Below, piece after piece: positions 18,549 to 32,760 of a stretch of DNA of 64,000 bases. Position numbers and translations under genes: made by a program. Origin of the DNA: Rugalucina vietnamica (taxonomy: Eukaryota > Mollusca > Bivalvia > Lucinida > Lucinidae); contig OZ024871.1 in NCBI GenBank assembly GCA_964017185.1, positions 61,927,226 to 61,991,225 of the forward strand. Reading direction: 5' to 3'. The notes under the pieces are model-generated. The model was not told the origin of the DNA. It searched no databases and was given only the letters and a program-made list of their open reading frames with translations. Position 1 is the first letter of the stretch. Each line of letters starts with the position of its first letter.

Positions 18549-20452
18549 ACAAGTAGCCCAAGGGCAACGATCGCTCACCTGAGAGTCAACAAGTACAGTC
18601 ACTGGACAAAGTAATTAGAGTTTATACCATATATGGGTATGGTGGCCATCTTGGTCATGTGACCTTGAAACCCTACTTACATCAGCAGAATAGCTCTTGT
18701 CTGGATTGTGTATCCTCTTGTCTGCCATTTTGGTTCATTGAAAAAATCATCTAACAAGGTCAGGGTCCTATAATAACCCCCGGGGTGGGGCCATATTTGA
18801 CTCCAGGGGCATAATTGGCAGGATTTATGTACAGCTCTACATGACATTGTTGTATATCAAATATACAAGCTTTGTGTCATGCTGTTGCAGAGATTTTTTC
18901 ATGTATTTCCATTATAAGTCTATGGTAGATAATGACATGCCTTGGGCGTGGCCTGTATGGACCCCAGGGGCACTGTTGGCAGCCTTTATAAAGGAGAGTA
19001 TTATACATTAGTCCACAAAACATATAAAAGCTCTGGGCCATATGGTTTTGGGGAAGATTTTTTTTAGTTTTTTTCTAATTGTAAGTCTAAGGGAGCTATT
19101 GACCCCCTGGGGTGGGGCCATTTCTGACCCCAGGGGCATGCTTGGCAGGATTAATGTAACGCTCCATATTACAATGCTGAATACCAAATATAGAAGCTTT
19201 GGCTGTTGTAGTTTCAGAGAAGAAGATTTTTTCATGTATTTTCCATTGTAAGCCTATGGGAGCTAATGATCCCCTGGGCGGGGCTATTTTTGACCCCAGG
19301 GGCATGGTCGGCAGGATTTATATAGAGGACCACTACACATCGCTACATACAAAATATGAAAGCTCTGGGCCTTGTGGTTTCGGAGAAGAAGATTTTTTTA
19401 TGTTTTTCCCATGACGCCTCCGGGGCGGGGCCTGTATGGACCCCAGGGGCATGGTTGGCAGGATTTATAAAAAGGGCCACTATACATTGCTACACACAAA
19501 TTATGAAAGCTTTGGGCCTTGTGGTTTTTGAGAAGAAGATTTTTTTTATTTTTTTCCCATTGTAAGTCTATGGGAGCTAATGACCCCCCAGGGCGGGGCC
19601 ATTTTTGACCCCAGGGGCCTGGTCGGCAGGATTTATAAAGAGGACCACTACACATTGCTACATACAAAATATGAAAGCTCTGGGCTTTGTGGTTTCGGAA
19701 AAGAAGATTTTTTTATGTTTTTATATGACGCCCCCGGGGTGGGGCCCATATGGACCCCAGGGGCACGGTTGGCAGGATTTATAAAAAAGGATCATTATAC
19801 ATTGCTACACACAAAATATGAAAGCTCTGGGCCTTGTTGTTTCTGAGAAGAAGATTTTTTTTATGTTTTCCCATTGTAAGTCTATGGGAGCTAATGACCC
19901 CCTGGGCGGGGCTATTTTTGACACCAGGGGCATGGTCGGCAGGATTTATAAAGAGGACCACTACACATTGCTACATACAAAATATGAAAGCTCTGGGCCT
20001 TGTGGTTTCGGAGAAGAAGATTTTTTTTTATGTTTTTCCCATGACGCCCCCGGGGCGGGCCCGTATGGACCCCAGGGGCAAGGTTGGCAGGATTTATAAA
20101 AAAATGACGATTATACATTGCTACACACAAAATATGAAAGCTCTGGGCCTTGTGGTTTGGGAGAAGAAGATTTTTTTTATGTTTTTCCAATTGTAAGTCT
20201 ATGGGAGCTATCTGTTGCTATGGAAACCAGAGTTCTGATCCGACCTGGCCCAAAACCTAACACAACCTTTCCCCCTCCCTAATGATGCTTTAGATAAAAT
20301 TTGATCATGATTGGCCGTGTTGTCTTAGAGATATTGAAGTTTGAAAATGTGAACGGACGGACGGACGGACGCACGCACGGACGGACGGACGCACGCCGGC
20401 TCGACTTCTATACTATAAGCTCACCTTGTGAGCCTTCGGCTCAGGTGAGCTA
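18549..20452 (-). mobile_element. HINE4: tandem-core element inserted in the SINE tail
   Basis: One end is AGTAGCCCAAGGGCAACG with CGCTCACCTGAG. The other is a hairpin made of AGCTCACC / GGTGAGCT around GAGCCTTCGGCTC, preceded by an ACGG/ACGC microsatellite (20354-20395). Between them are about ten ~160-bp units. From 19.1 kb these alternate in two types (GGGAGCTAATGACCCCC and CCATGACGCCCCC), giving a ~315-bp higher-order repeat. Open frames here are shadows of the repeat. Confidence 0.65.
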
Positions 20453-25186: not shown

Positions 25187-25261
25187 CATTGATAAATACG
25201 AAGTGATGGTTTATACCGTACCCATCATAAAAGAACCTTTGAATGTTTTGAATTGTTAAGG

Positions 25262-26312
25262 ATCAGTCAGACCAGAGAACGGGTTCCAACGGATGCCGAA
25301 CGGATGCCGAACGGACAGAAAATATGCAAAAAATACTTGTCCGTTGATATCCGTTCCCAAAAGTCGTCTCGAGGGCGGTGAAGACCATCGCGGAAGATTT
25401 CAGGAACGTGTAAACCGGACGAGAACCGCATTTGTAATGGACAAGGAACGGTTAACCAACGGACAGAACGGACAAGGAACGTTTAACTAACGGATATTAC
25501 CGGATGAGGAACGGATGTATACCGGACAGAACGAACATGAACCGCACGAGAAACGGGCAAAACGGTCGTCTAACGGTTAACGAACGTGTTTAAACGGTCA
25601 CGTGACGGATGAAACGGATATAAATACTCAGGCAAGACTGGCCAGTTCATGCTCATCAATACTGACCCCAAGCAGGTCTATCTCAGCCTGGATCGGCGCT
25701 GCTTGGCACTCAAGGCCGGCTCTTACACGACAGTCCATTGCACTAATATTTTATTCAACTAATATTCTATATTCCTGAATGTCCTAACACACAAAGTGAT
25801 AGAAATAAAATGAGTGTAGGATTGGGCAAGTCGCATCTTTTAAGATTGAGGTAATTGGTTCGATCACATGAAACAGAGCTTATATTCGTTACTTGAACGT
25901 TCCCTGTCCGTTGTTGTCCGTTTAGCAAACGGTCCCCGTCCGTTCCAGACCGTTTTAACCGTTACATGTCCGTTAGTCGTCCGTTGGCCACCACTTTTGA
26001 CCTGACGCAAACGGGTATCTACCGGATGACTACCGAATGTAGAACGGATAAGTACCGGGCAAACCGGATACCAACGCACAGCTAACGGACAACCAACGGA
26101 CGCCCAACGGATTCATTTATCCGGTCTAACCCGTTGGAACCCGTTCCAAGTTTTGAACATGCACAAAACTTGTCAACGGACACCAACGGGTAAAACGGAC
26201 ATCAACGGACACGGAACGGGTTCACCGGATAAGGAACGGATGCCAACGGACACCAACGGACACCAACGGACTTAACCCGTTTGACGTCCGTTCGCCTGGT
26301 GTGACTGATACA
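25262..26312. mobile_element. TIR element packed with AACGG-type repeats
   Basis: The ends are inverted: ATCAGTCAGACCAGAGAACG on the left and CGTTCGCCTGGTGTGACTGAT on the right, about 85% complementary. Between them dozens of degenerate 9-12-bp motifs of the type AACGGACACC, in both orientations, surround a small unique middle (about 25640-25860). Short repeats inside TIRs are typical of transposase-binding subterminal arrays in DNA transposons. The core YAACGG also matches animal Myb sites. No transposase frame, so non-autonomous. The superfamily is unknown. Confidence 0.6.
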
Positions 26313-27643
26313 TAAATGTAAAAATACTTAAAATTATATACGAAATATAGTGGTAAAACATTGTGGAAGCTTCATCCCCGAAAGGTGACCCATAGACAAC
26401 TATTAATTAATGCGATATTTTTGGACATACATGCCGTACATTAGAGGCACATTGCCTTTAATAGACACCAAAGAAACAGAATATATCTACGAATGCATGG
26501 TAAGGAAGCTATACCGTTTTTCGCACGAACAGTTAAATATCAATAAAAAGCAGTCATCAGTACTGATGTTTTCTAGCAGCTGTAATAGCAATTGGAAATA
26601 ATCTTTTAAAAATGTAGAAACACAAACCTGTAAACACTTAAAGTCGAATGAGTCGATTTTATTTTGTGAATAATGATTTTCGTATTTTATAAACGATTGT
26701 TAGTAAAACGAAATGATGCAATTTCCGTTTACCTATTTTTGTAATGGTGCGAAACTGCAATATGCTATTCTTATTTTGCACAATGGTTCAATTACAACTT
26801 TCCACAGTACAATACGCTATGTTTCAACCATATCATATTTCATGTTGAAAAAGCAGAACAGTTATATAAGGTTCAGATACATTCCATCATGTATATTTCT
26901 TTGAAAACATAGTATGACGGAAATCTGAAGCGAACCCTGCGTATACTATTAAACTTTATATGCTATTTACTATTTTAATCGTCGACATCTATCAAATGTG
27001 ACATTTTCATATTTACTTTCCATTGTCTGAAAGAAAACACATATTGTTTCCTGAAACATAATAACACACATAACACATAACATACGAGGGGAAAGCAAAA
27101 AGTTCGTGGACTTTCTTAATAACTCTTATAATTGACGTCTGATTGTTTTCGTATTTTCACAAGTGTAATAATGGTCTACTGTCGACATTCATGTAAAATG
27201 TTATTTGTCGAATCTCATTTTTGATTGGTCAAATTACATCGACAAACACGTGGGGTTTGCTACCCCGGAGCACGCCGTAAAATCTCTGTTTACGTGTTTA
27301 TAAATATAAAAATATTTTAAACAATGCCATTTCTAAATCTCCTTAAATTATGGAAATATTGATAATGATGTTATTCGGCTTGAAATGTGAAATTGCAGTT
27401 CTCGCATTCGAAAGACAACGCTACAGCGACACGTTTTGAAAGACAAGTCTAAGCAAAAAATTTAGTAAAAATGACGTTACTGGTAAATGGCGGAAACTTG
27501 CACATCGATAAAATTTGTGCGAGACTTCCGAATAAAACCTACAGAAGCGTCTGATTTGTTACAAACAGCTAGAGACACATCAGAACTGAAGCATACAACA
27601 GTGTTCAATGATGTGCAAAGTGTTACTCACAACAAAATAGCTG
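26270..27643. repeat. Source copy of recently duplicated block B
   Basis: Direct duplicate of 30883-32256, offset 4613 bp, almost identical (one difference seen, A/T at 27269). The block starts inside the last 43 bp of the AACGG element and stops inside the mariner-like element, so it is a segmental copy and not a transposon unit. The short open frames at 26410 and 26713 recur unchanged in the copy only because the duplication is recent. Confidence 0.85.
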
Positions 27644-28102
27644 TTAAAAACAACAAGTAAGCACAAAAATCTACGCAAACAACTTTAACGTCATGGCATG
27701 CCCCGTATAATCCTAGCGTCTATCGCAGAAATTGTCATAAAAACTAAATGTTTCTAGTGATTCGCCTTAAACTTTCTATTGCAAACCTTCACGGATGGGG
27801 AATAAATATATGAAAATTTGCTTGAAGTCGAATGAGAAATAATGTTTTTATATGAACTTTTAACTTGGCCAGCGTATGCAGAAGCCCGTTGGCAAATGAC
27901 GTTAACGTCTTGGCGTGCTCCGGGTAGCGCTAACACGCATCAAACAAATTGCCATAGAAACGATGCTTATCAAGCGATTTGTCTGAAACTTTCTATGCTT
28001 GTTTGCATTAAATTGATCGCAAACATACGATAATTTCAGAGAAATCGCATATATACTTTTGATTTTAATGACAAAGTCCACGAACTTTTTGCTTTCCCCT
28101 CG
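27085..28102 (+). mobile_element. Mariner-like element with perfect 30-bp TIRs
   Basis: Both ends carry CGAGGGGAAAGCAAAAAG followed by TTCGTGGACTT, perfect inverted copies, with TA at each side (27083-84, 28103-04) as expected for Tc1/mariner. At about 27504-27660 a plus-strand frame reads IKFVRDFRIKPTEASDLL and then KHTTVFNDVQ before a stop. This resembles the N-terminal helix-turn-helix of mariner transposases (IKF...KP.E....L....L....VF). The 1-kb length and stops show it is a deleted, inactive copy. Confidence 0.75.
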
Positions 28103-28119
28103 TATATTCTTAGGCATAT

Positions 28120-28794
28120 GGGCCTAGAATTATAATGCTTCCTTAATTCTTAAGGACGACCTTGGCTCAATATTTTCCTTAAAATCGACAAAAGTGCATT
28201 ACAATAGATTTTCTTAGACCTTAACTTGAGGACACGCCCGCCTGGCATTTGGAACTGTTACTTAGATTCTGAGTTCGATACCTATTGGTGTGATTATTTT
28301 TTTTCTTGTCACTTTTTTATTTTTGTTAGTAATACATGTGTACTTTATTATTCGTTTACATTCTTTATCTTTTGTTTTGTTTTCTTGTTTCAAATTTAGT
28401 AATTTTTCGAGTCGTCCTACAGTGAAAATTCACCATTGCCACACACATTCACATACACACGTACAATGAGGTCTGACCAGAGACATATAGGATATGGTCT
28501 GACATAGACTTATCTAGAATACATACTTGGAAATAATCCAAGGACACATGATTTTTATCATTATAGTAGGATCTATATAATGGCGACTGCAAATATAGTT
28601 ATTAAGGTTAGGTTCTTTGGGATGCAGTGAAAACATTCAAAGGGAGTAGTGGGGGCTTTAGTGCACTATTTCGGGTAATGAACCCTCATCAGTGACGCTT
28701 TATAAACCGACACCGAAAGCCAGACAAGGCTATGAAGTTCGATATGTGCGATATTTTTTCTTTCTTTTTATTTTTCTTTGATTTTTCTTTTATT
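28120..28794 (+). repeat. Left arm of compound inverted repeat
   Basis: It starts GGGCCTAGAATTAT and is the inverted match of 32897-33738. It holds a B-box-like GAGTTCGATACC (about 28270) of a tRNA-derived head whose A box is lost here, then unique sequence shared with the other arm up to CTTTTATT at 28794, where HINE3 begins. Confidence 0.8.
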
Positions 28795-30139
28795 ATGTCT
28801 CCCCCCGACAGGGTCGGCAGACATATTGTTTTTCCCCGTGCGTCTGTCTGTCTGTCCGTCCGTCCGTCCGTCTGTCCGTCACAAATCGTGTCCGCTCTAT
28901 AACGTGAAAACCGTTAAAGATTTTTCAATGAAACTTGGTACACTTGTAAACCACGACCAGACGATGTGTCATGCACAAGAACCATAACTCTAGCTTGAGT
29001 CTTTTTGGAGTTATTTCCCTTTGATCATTTTCGATACAATTTCGTGTCCGCTGTATAACTTGAAAACCATTAAAGATTTTTCAATGAAACTTGGTACACT
29101 TGTAGACCACGACAAGACGATCTGTCATGCACAAGAACCATAACTCTGGCTTGAGTATTTTTGGAGTTATTTCCCTTTGATTATTTTCGATACAATTTCG
29201 TGTCCGCTGTATAACTTGAAAACCGTTTAAGATTTTTCAATAAAACTTGGTACACTTATTGAGCATGATCAGACGATATGTCATGCACAAGAACCATAAC
29301 TCTGGCTTGAGTATTTTATGAGTTATTTCCCTTTAGTTATTTTCCATACAATTTCGTGTCCGCTTTATAACTCGAAAATCGTAAGAGTTATTTCAATGAA
29401 ACTTGATACACTTATAAAGCACGATGAGATTACGTGTCGTGTTAAAGAACCATAACTCTTGCTTGCATATCTTTGGAGTAATTTTCCTTTGATTATTTTC
29501 CATACAATTTCGTGTCCACCCTATAACTTGAAAACCGTAAGAGAAATTTCAGTGAAACTTGGTACACTTATAAAGCATGATGAGACGATGTGTCATGCAC
29601 AAGAATTATAACTCTTGCTTTCATATCTTTGGAGTTATTATCTTTTGATTATTTTTCCATACAATTTCATGTCCACTCTATAACTTGAAAACCATAAGAA
29701 ATATTTCAATGAAACTTGGTACACTTATAAAGCACGATGAGATGATGTGTCATGCTAAAGAACCATAACTCTTGCTTGCATATCTTTGGAGTTATTTCCC
29801 TTTGATTATTTTTCATTCAATTTCGTGTCTGCTCTATAACTCAAAAACCATTAGAGATTTTTCAATGAAACATGGTACACTTATAAAGCATGATGCACAA
29901 GAATCATTACTCTTGCTTTCATATCTTTGGAGTTATTTCCCTTTGATTATTTTCCAAACACTTTAGTGCCCCCTCTATAACTTGAAAACCGTAAGAGATA
30001 TTTCAATGAAACTTGGTACATTTATAAAACAGAATGACAGGATATGTGATGCACAAGAACTATAACTCTTGCTTGCATATTTTGGACATGCACGTAGAAG
30101 GGGGGAGACATCAGTTTTCACATAGAAAACAAATTCTAG
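28795..30139 (+). mobile_element. HINE3: same subfamily as HINE1
   Basis: Starts ATGTCTCCCCCCGACAGGG, then a GTCT/GTCC microsatellite (28850-28880), about eight ~160-bp units (CATGCACAAGAACCATAAC, GAAACTTGGTACACTT), and ends with the GTTTTC/GAAAAC hairpin and CTAG at 30136-30139. The 11-bp string TTTCTTTTATT lies directly at both edges (28784-28794, 30140-30150). Confidence 0.7.
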
Positions 30140-30372
30140 TTTCTTTTATTGTTACTCGACAGCTACCTTAAGAAAAGATTTTACTAAGGCTAGACAAAAA
30201 GTGCTCAATGTAAGCATTATTCGCGTTTTGATAATATGTTGATGCACATTATGTAACCTCGCAACGCAACGTACACACGCGATATCACTTTTTTCACTTT
30301 TTTCATGAGTGTCCGCGCGTGCAAGAGTGAGAGTCTTTTTCACTTCCTTTTGTTTTACTTTAACATTACTTT
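30140..30372. other. No gene recognised
   Basis: Spacer between HINE3 and block A. No supported exon or repeat. Confidence 0.4.
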
Positions 30373-30882
30373 TAAACTAAACAGCTCGAAGAAGAAAGAT
30401 AGTACATGTACGATGTGGCTTAACCACCCAGTCAGCAATTTTCAGTCATGTCGGGATATAAGCATTTTTTTAAGATTCAGTTTTACGTCCCTTTCAAGAT
30501 TATTTCAGCTCATATGAGACGGGCCAATCAGTAGGTGGGCGAAAACGGGAGAACCCCGAGAAAACAGATATGGTCATGTCGATGCGTTGGTTCAGTTTTA
30601 CAGAATTTCTACCCACTGACATTTGCGAGATGTGTATAACCACCCAAGTAAACAACTAAATATGCATGGATAGTTTGACAACCACTTTTTCTGGGCAGAC
30701 CCAGACCTACTTTTAGTTAGCAATTAACCAGTCATCGGGTGAGTCAGTTACATGTATAAGCTTAACCTGGAGGTACGAGCAGCCTATCTATTTCTCACGG
30801 CCCCAATGGCCGAGGTCACATAATGAATGTGTCGGGTTGGCGGGACAAGGTTCTTAATCTATGACCAGAGTACGGCAATCAA
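30373..30882. repeat. Block A (copy 1), carrying a minus-strand SINE piece
   Basis: Direct duplicate of 32252-32760 (offset 1879 bp) with almost no change. At about 30475-30560 it contains the SINE central domain in reverse (TTATTTCAGCTCATATGAG, CCAATCAGTAGGTGGG). Confidence 0.85.
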
Positions 30883-32256
30883 ACTTAACCCGTTTGACGT
30901 CCGTTCGCCTGGTGTGACTGATACATAAATGTAAAAATACTTAAAATTATATACGAAATATAGTGGTAAAACATTGTGGAAGCTTCATCCCCGAAAGGTG
31001 ACCCATAGACAACTATTAATTAATGCGATATTTTTGGACATACATGCCGTACATTAGAGGCACATTGCCTTTAATAGACACCAAAGAAACAGAATATATC
31101 TACGAATGCATGGTAAGGAAGCTATACCGTTTTTCGCACGAACAGTTAAATATCAATAAAAAGCAGTCATCAGTACTGATGTTTTCTAGCAGCTGTAATA
31201 GCAATTGGAAATAATCTTTTAAAAATGTAGAAACACAAACCTGTAAACACTTAAAGTCGAATGAGTCGATTTTATTTTGTGAATAATGATTTTCGTATTT
31301 TATAAACGATTGTTAGTAAAACGAAATGATGCAATTTCCGTTTACCTATTTTTGTAATGGTGCGAAACTGCAATATGCTATTCTTATTTTGCACAATGGT
31401 TCAATTACAACTTTCCACAGTACAATACGCTATGTTTCAACCATATCATATTTCATGTTGAAAAAGCAGAACAGTTATATAAGGTTCAGATACATTCCAT
31501 CATGTATATTTCTTTGAAAACATAGTATGACGGAAATCTGAAGCGAACCCTGCGTATACTATTAAACTTTATATGCTATTTACTATTTTAATCGTCGACA
31601 TCTATCAAATGTGACATTTTCATATTTACTTTCCATTGTCTGAAAGAAAACACATATTGTTTCCTGAAACATAATAACACACATAACACATAACATACGA
31701 GGGGAAAGCAAAAAGTTCGTGGACTTTCTTAATAACTCTTATAATTGACGTCTGATTGTTTTCGTATTTTCACAAGTGTAATAATGGTCTACTGTCGACA
31801 TTCATGTAAAATGTTATTTGTCGAATCTCATTTTTGATTGGTCAAATTACATCGACAAACACGTGGGGTTTGCTACCCCGGAGCTCGCCGTAAAATCTCT
31901 GTTTACGTGTTTATAAATATAAAAATATTTTAAACAATGCCATTTCTAAATCTCCTTAAATTATGGAAATATTGATAATGATGTTATTCGGCTTGAAATG
32001 TGAAATTGCAGTTCTCGCATTCGAAAGACAACGCTACAGCGACACGTTTTGAAAGACAAGTCTAAGCAAAAAATTTAGTAAAAATGACGTTACTGGTAAA
32101 TGGCGGAAACTTGCACATCGATAAAATTTGTGCGAGACTTCCGAATAAAACCTACAGAAGCGTCTGATTTGTTACAAACAGCTAGAGACACATCAGAACT
32201 GAAGCATACAACAGTGTTCAATGATGTGCAAAGTGTTACTCACAACAAAATAAACT
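30883..32256. repeat. Derived copy of block B
   Basis: Copy of 26270-27643 placed between blocks A and A'. It begins with a cut-off 43-bp end of the AACGG element and ends with a cut-off left half of the mariner-like element (its left TIR at about 31696-31728, right TIR absent). Those truncations show that this copy is the derived one. Confidence 0.85.
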
Positions 32257-32760
32257 AAACAGCTCGAAGAAGAAAGATAGTACATGTACGATGTGGCTTA
32301 ACCACCCAGTCAGCAATTTTCAGTCATGTCGGGATATAAGCATTTTTTTAAGATTCAGTTTTACGTCCCTTTCAAGATTATTTCAGCTCATATGAGACGG
32401 GCCAATCAGTAGGTGGGCGAAAACGGGAGAACCCCGAGAAAACAGATATGGTCATGTCGATGCGTTGGTTCAGTTTTACAGAATTTCTACCCACTGACAT
32501 TTGCGAGATGTGTATAACCACCCAAGTAAACAACTAAATATGCATGGATAGTTTGACAACCACTTTTTCTGGGCAGACCCAGACCTACTTTAAGTTAGCA
32601 ATTAACCAGTCATCGGGTGAGTCAGTTACATGTATAAGCTTAACCTGGAGGTACGAGCAGCCTATCTATTTCTCACGGCCCCAATGGCCGAGGTCACATA
32701 ATGAATGTGTCGGGTTGGCGGGACAAGGTTCTTAATCTATGACCAGAGTACGGCAATCAA
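32252..32760. repeat. Block A' (copy 2)
   Basis: Second copy of block A including the reversed SINE domain (about 32355-32440). The junction with block B shares only about two bases of microhomology. Confidence 0.85.

Follow-up and report, generated by a model that had tools for sequence, protein, structure and literature searches.

The window, that is, the whole 64,000-nucleotide stretch of Rugalucina vietnamica DNA that was analysed, holds a compact element with inverted ends, most of which is made up of a short motif that is repeated in both orientations. Its parts, along with one displaced fragment, are as follows:

25256..25258: left flanking TWA, here TTA, at the TWA flank position in 58 copies
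25259..26312: whole element, a PIF/Harbinger-type transposon and deletion derivative of 1054 bp, with ends set from 58 paired copies
25259..25275, plus strand: left TIR, AGGATCAGTCAGACCAG, sharing 14 of 17 bases with the right TIR
25278..25617, plus strand: left array, with 19 exact A[AC]CGG cores, mostly on the plus strand, in steps of ~10.5 bp
25619..25626, plus strand: TATAAATA, TATA-like, at the left array's inner edge; it precedes the second ORF in longer copies (54 of 58 copies)
25637..25738, minus strand: start of a HARBI1-like transposase, 34 codons (MDCRVRAGLEC...), truncated by internal deletion, with longer versions in other copies
25879..25887, minus strand: GAATATAAG, TATA-like, at the right array's inner edge; it precedes the transposase ATG (56 of 58 copies)
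25908..26292: right array, with 31 exact A[AC]CGG cores, some runs facing one way and some the other
26296..26312, minus strand: right TIR, reading TGTATCAGTCACACCAG on the minus strand; the right terminus of 22 bp is found genome-wide
26313..26315: right flanking TWA, here TAA, its central base unlike the left one, as in 14 of 58 copies
30883..30925: 43-bp fragment of the element's right end, which came along in a segmental duplicate and is no independent insertion

An earlier note on this DNA had described inverted ends bounding a 1-kb element, and its coordinates prove to be almost exact. Within a 14-bp part of the ends 13 of 14 bases match, a degree of matching that 5 of 3000 random pairs of 35-bp window pieces equal or beat, and the 17-bp TIRs agree at 14 of 17 positions. 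Judged by copies elsewhere, the left end lies 3 bp outside the first-noted 25262, which gives 25259-26312; from the window copy by itself a target duplication is ambiguous. The middle, which had been described as a short stretch apart from the motif, is short indeed (~0.29 kb), but it is not anonymous, as it holds the 34 minus-strand transposase codons. The plus-strand reading of 25631-25762, considered as a captured host exon, gave no Pfam or PDB match, and is really the antisense of the transposase start.

The duplicate from which the displaced fragment comes is a tandem one, 99.8-99.9% identical, with 26270-27639 equal to 30883-32252 and 30373-30882 equal to 32251-32760. One of its copies includes an extra 2.7-kb segment (27640-30372) that has TA at both borders and a 156-bp minisatellite inside, and the whole (26270-32760) reflects either a duplication of recent date that received an insertion, or two haplotypes wrongly joined in assembly. 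A further repeat of the window involves TTGACCCCAGGGG, part of a BIV160 primer (PMC5139131). This has 13 window matches at no more than 2 mismatches (2 of them exact) versus 0.56 expected, with 10 of the 13 found in a BIV160-like satellite at 18797-20078, in tandem arrays with a period of ~147-315 bp. The repeats point to a bivalve mollusc as the host.

As to the motif, AACGG/CCGTT occurs exactly 42 times in 25262-26312, versus a mean of 5.1 and a maximum of 13 when the element was dinucleotide-shuffled 1000 times, and at 0.86 per kb elsewhere in the window. If ACCGG is included, there are 50 exact A[AC]CGG cores, 36 plus (29 AACGG and 7 ACCGG) and 14 minus (13 AACGG and 1 ACCGG), and these fill 50 of ~71 array slots. 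Gaps of 16 bp or less make up 37 of the 49 between cores and average 10.49 bp, i.e., about one helical turn. The original description, of a motif that fills nearly everything outside the middle and is flipped repeatedly, is thereby borne out. The consensus of the arrays, which are ~350 and ~400 bp long, reads A[AC]CGGNY; all of the 50 window sites have a pyrimidine at base +6, the second past the core, and most other spacer bases vary. Phase coherence is not lowered by permuting the observed gaps, with 454 of 2000 permutations on the left and 576 of 2000 on the right reaching the observed value, and there is thus no support for selection on helical phase beyond the mean spacing.

Tandem 10-11-bp units in flipped runs, with a phase order no better than that of permuted gaps, might be taken for a neutral minisatellite that expands within transposon ends and is bound by no protein. 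Neighbouring units, however, have a spacer similarity of 0.418 (33 pairs) versus 0.400 for other pairs (n = 1192), which is unlike recent tandem expansion, and exact cores occupying that large a share of the slots likewise argues against neutrality. Comparisons within and between families, taken up below, bear on this reading as well.

The element is not confined to this locus. When the 1.09-Gb assembly (47 contigs) was searched with up to 2 mismatches allowed in the termini, the 21-bp left terminus was found at 111 places genome-wide (reversed-pattern control, 3) and the 22-bp right terminus at 106 (control, 1). A local minisatellite, which is what the earlier note expected should no other copies exist, is therefore ruled out by dispersed copies that share and pair their termini. 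Copies examined numbered 61, i.e., 60 of 100 listed left ends plus the window copy, and in 58 of them a right end is paired within the fetched stretch (L147, L173 and L187 being unpaired). Paired copies are 942-2765 bp long, with 57 distinct lengths among the 58, and the largest core-free gap per copy ranges from 0.19 to 1.8 kb, the middle being altered by deletions and insertions. Both arrays are nevertheless present in full in 54 of 58 (31-37 plus and 11-14 minus cores), the exceptions being L145, L153, L155 and L174.

Arms diverge between copies by a mean of 1.5% (57 left and 52 right arms, with 1 left and 6 right arms omitted as broken or interrupted), and in the window copy 1 of 352 and 2 of 425 arm columns depart from the family majority. 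The feature belongs to a young, apparently non-autonomous PIF/Harbinger-type family whose ~100 copies are internally deleted. Constraint on the cores within this family is marginal (letters, p = 0.035 and 0.040; shared-variant columns, p = 0.31 and 1.0), which is a point in favour of neutral arrays. Two copies, L171 and L172, have ~1.1-1.2 kb extra just inside the right array, at an identical point, and represent a transposing subfamily or else a nested element. Outside of this genome, the element ends had 0 matches in a scan of viral contigs, and a scan of a genome-contig collection returned 2 places, whose surroundings hold 3-4 sites per 500 bp and which were taken as chance. The array pattern was met with in at least 120 stretches of viral contigs, the densest with 15 sites per 500 bp versus 31 here, and these were judged unrelated.

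Flanks in the 58 copies are TAA/TAA in 25, TTA/TTA in 16, TTA/TAA in 8, TAA/TTA in 6, ATA/ATA in 1, AAA/AAA in 1, and of another type in 1, namely L136, where the flank has apparently been shifted by an insertion. TWA is thus found on both sides in 55 of 58 copies and the same TWA in 41, and the central base is equal in 43 of 58 versus 29.1 expected, which points to a duplication in most copies, though in 14 it is unequal. That number is above what an arm divergence of 1.5% suggests, and work on mPing has offered no obvious explanation for unequal TWA flanks (PMC4561436, in the portion available). Empty sites were sought by joining the flanks of a copy and looking for related sites, with 11 copies inspected. 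Clean sites with one TWA were found for L150, L172, L178 and L143 (best matches of 98.2, 97.3, 96.4 and 92.1%, respectively); for L179 the sites show TAA in most cases, between flanks that are unequal; L168 is ambiguous; the related sites of L156, L154, L166 and L134 lack a clean TWA; and for L181 there are none. Target duplication, a check suggested from the outset, accordingly finds its answer in the flanking TWA together with some clean single-TWA empty sites.

The first TIR base is A in 50 and T in 8 left ends, and, reading from outside in, A in 52 and T in 6 right ends (n = 58), where PIF/Harbinger TIRs usually begin with A or G (PMC4482050). A TWA target, a HARBI1-like transposase and a second ORF are features of PIF/Harbinger (PMC4482050, PMC2836001), and it is from the TWA flanks, the empty sites, the paired dispersed copies, and the HARBI1-like piece plus second ORF that this family is assigned to that superfamily. 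One might instead think of a hAT-type element with Ac-like AAACGG sites and a CGG-binding BED transposase, as the Ac transposase binds AAACGG subterminal repeats cooperatively (PMC3260210) and CGG is preferred by many hAT-derived CGG-binding proteins (PMC8097297). The flank agreement that exceeds expectation sits at the TWA, however, and not over 8 bp; given 3-bp TWA flanks without an 8-bp duplication, and gene pieces that are HARBI1-like, we consider hAT excluded for practical purposes. CACTA is excluded by flanks and gene pieces. Foldback arms were considered as well, but the best direct alignment of the arms scores 75 and the best inverted one 66, so that the arms are not inverted copies of each other. 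Folding energy lies below that of 50 of 50 order shuffles in which orientation was kept, and above that of 50 of 50 with random orientation.

A transposase gene with the same ends had been proposed as something to look for, and part of one exists. Behind the right array, longer copies encode on their minus strand as much as 149 aa of the N-terminal part of a transposase, starting with MDCRVRAGLEC, which from its letters we initially took to be HARBI1-like. By itself this piece is without a credible Pfam or PDB match; it does, though, align over 106 aa, at 51% identity, with a 380-aa frame of L194, a Harbinger family of the same genome, and the catalytic part of the L194 frame matches PF13359 (DDE_Tnp_4) at 1.3e-25. 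L194 (L194:640-2211) is a separate Harbinger family, with nine listed places that have a 392-aa transposase frame. On the plus strand behind the left array is the second ORF, starting MPPKGKSKRTP and found at 55 places, its N-terminal 50 aa being present letter for letter in L179. Only ~50 aa of this ORF survive, and no Myb domain was seen in these; nor was the catalytic transposase part seen in the copies read. PF13837 (Myb_DNA-bind_4) occurs at 48 places in the genome, of which 0 are within 100 kb of the listed places of the transposase query, as compared by eye.

No autonomous copy was found; of 541 candidates 150 were scored, and where identity is at least 88% the open frames are 174 aa or less. 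The transposase query ended at residue 149, so that this genome search is blind to sequence beyond, and the paired copies read are 2.77 kb or shorter. The longest candidate, on contig 13 and ~3.9 kb by its end positions, is a family copy (L195) lengthened by a LINE-like insertion that contains an open frame of 470 aa, presumably a reverse transcriptase. The copies that were read look like deletion derivatives that depend on a partner.

Two relatives, L193 and L194, for each of which the letters of one copy were used, allow the arrays to be considered over a longer time. L193, whose transposase part shows 60% identity over 131 aa, is flanked by TAA left and right and carries the TIR AGTACCAGTCACA at both ends, and its arrays hold 23 and 6 exact cores. 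That a relative so diverged carries the identical motif in its arrays indicates that the arrays are older than the window family. Between L193 and the window, identity on the transposase side extends to 122 of 138 core columns versus 266 of 377 others, and in ungapped blocks of at least 30 columns the counts are 92 of 106 versus 152 of 232 (p = 4e-5), it being the case that alignment of arrays can in itself favour cores. On the other (left) side there is little or no difference, with core columns at 69 of 93 versus 179 of 261 elsewhere; the left-arm blocks give 41 of 54 versus 82 of 111 with window-defined cores (p = 0.85), and 17 of 18 versus 106 of 147 with L193-defined cores (p = 0.045). 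In the transposase-side arm of L193 all 23 sites have a pyrimidine at base +6.

For the neutral minisatellite, then, the want of a core effect in the left arm between families may be counted in its favour; against it are the better keeping of cores than of the rest on the transposase side, and a +6 pyrimidine that is invariant in both the window family and L193. On balance we regard that reading as improbable. In L194, a more distant family with a weaker array, the +6 pyrimidine rule does not hold, and the motif is a shifted one: a stretch of 341 bp, which was chosen after reading, has 14 [ACT]ACGG sites versus a mean of 4.2 and a maximum of 10 in 1000 shuffles. This array stands upstream of TATAAAAG, followed by the transposase ATG.

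What the arrays would be for is best approached from the proteins of the superfamily. PIF/Harbinger transposition needs two proteins (PMC2836001), and the Myb-like protein of zebrafish Harbinger3_DR recognises a 9-bp subterminal motif (PMC9710019). The suggestion in the earlier note that this is a transposase-binding array is thereby supported as a reading, by analogy, in that the superfamily normally encodes a Myb-like partner and the Harbinger3_DR motif is a precedent. Membership in the superfamily makes a Myb-like binder plausible, yet the sites are not of the classical YAACGG kind, as the base before AACGG is C in 14, G in 13, A in 10 and T in 5 (n = 42).

Of the dozens of YAACGG Myb-type sites first claimed, that is, dozens of AACGG sites are indeed there (42), but the YAACGG form fits 19 of these. 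AACGG does resemble the YAAC[GT]G Myb core, in which a pyrimidine comes before AAC, and superfamily members do encode Myb-like proteins, from which one could envisage a sponge for host Myb proteins, or an enhancer. With no preference for a pyrimidine in front of AACGG, such a host-directed role seems very improbable, more so than neutrality.

Both arrays end at inward-facing TATA-like boxes (54 and 56 of 58 copies), and promoter control is thus a natural second role for them. It could also be imagined as the chief one, with the arrays serving mainly as promoter or silencer elements for a transcription factor of host or element, their position at the ends a by-product, and the TIRs sufficing for transposition. 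That the L194 array likewise lies directly upstream of TATAAAAG and the transposase ATG agrees with this. The arrays, however, are kept in deletion copies (54 of 58) despite the loss of most of both genes, which fits movement in trans, and most of each array would seem to lie beyond the distance from the TATA box that a core promoter requires. As the main function we think it unlikely, if less so than the alternatives already weighed. Promoter role and transposition role are nonetheless compatible, and not exclusive of each other.

The reading we prefer, at a probability of roughly three in four, is that these are PIF/Harbinger deletion copies in which the arrays act as docking sites for an element-encoded partner (or for the transposase), and so in TIR recruitment and end pairing, with the binding inferred from sequence. 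The ancestral element would have had two convergent genes, i.e., a minus-strand transposase gene behind the right array and a plus-strand second ORF behind the left one. A DNA-binding partner encoded by the element, presumably the Myb-like ORF protein of the superfamily (or else the transposase), would bind cooperatively along each array, and once bound would recruit the transposase to the TIRs and pair the ends. Sites that recur roughly once per helical turn within each end would suit such a cooperative binder. Bound arrays may also tune the output of both promoters. Deletion copies would retain arrays because arrays are what is recognised in trans. In short, it is most likely that the transposase or a Myb-like partner lands on the arrays, which may double as promoter elements.

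A bolder version, which we offer tentatively and hold to be possible rather than probable, has the array in dual use: some 50 one-turn sites for one element protein would both scaffold the transpososome and act as autoregulated promoters for the two convergent genes, and from family to family the site would change along with the protein (AACGG in two families, CACGG/TACGG in another).

In comparison with known systems, the family resembles PIF/Harbinger elements and their MITEs (Harbinger3N_DR, mPing/Ping/Pong) in its TWA, its mostly A-first TIR, its HARBI1-like piece, its second ORF and its deletion derivatives, and resembles Harbinger3_DR in particular in having a subterminal motif, which there is 9 bp and recognised by that element's Myb-like protein (PMC9710019). 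It differs from known PIF/Harbinger in having 50 exact sites within the ~0.75 kb of its ends, in both orientations, in the unequal TWA of 14 of 58 copies, and in that the catalytic part and a Myb domain were not seen in the copies examined. Maize Ac/Ds, a hAT system, similarly has many short CGG-containing repeats inside its TIRs, cooperative transposase binding to these subterminal repeats, and non-autonomous copies with variable filler (PMC3260210). Unlike Ac/Ds, this family belongs to another superfamily, with 3-bp flanks, and has A at the first base in 10 of 42 sites, i.e., without preference; Ac and Hermes nevertheless show, from another superfamily, the general logic of cooperative binding to end arrays (PMC3260210, PMC10368747).

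CACTA elements (En/Spm, Tgmt*) have many asymmetric subterminal repeats that are able to pair as stem-loops, and a separate element-encoded TNPA-like protein that binds the subterminal motifs (PMC2613891), but this family lacks CACTA ends and its gene pieces resemble HARBI1. Foldback elements (FB, Galileo, Tetris) have repeats within their ends, those of Galileo holding additional transposase sites (PMC4079207); the arms here, with their closer direct than inverted alignment, are not inverted copies. The earlier note knew of no such family. Its kind is a known one, PIF/Harbinger, and it is the array-rich variant that is new, insofar as no report of such an array in a PIF/Harbinger element was found in a literature that was covered in part and in papers that were available in portions.

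How the two-protein machinery recognises PIF/Harbinger elements is poorly known, DNA binding having been shown experimentally, so far as the available portion of PMC9710019 indicates, only for the Harbinger3_DR Myb-like protein and its 9-bp motif. Fifty natural sites, ~100 copies, L193 with the same motif and L194 with a shifted one together constitute a direct test system, in which one can ask which protein binds, how sites cooperate, and whether protein and site co-evolve. If the arrays do have a dual use, then deletion copies would both ride on and soak up one and the same protein, thereby limiting the family.
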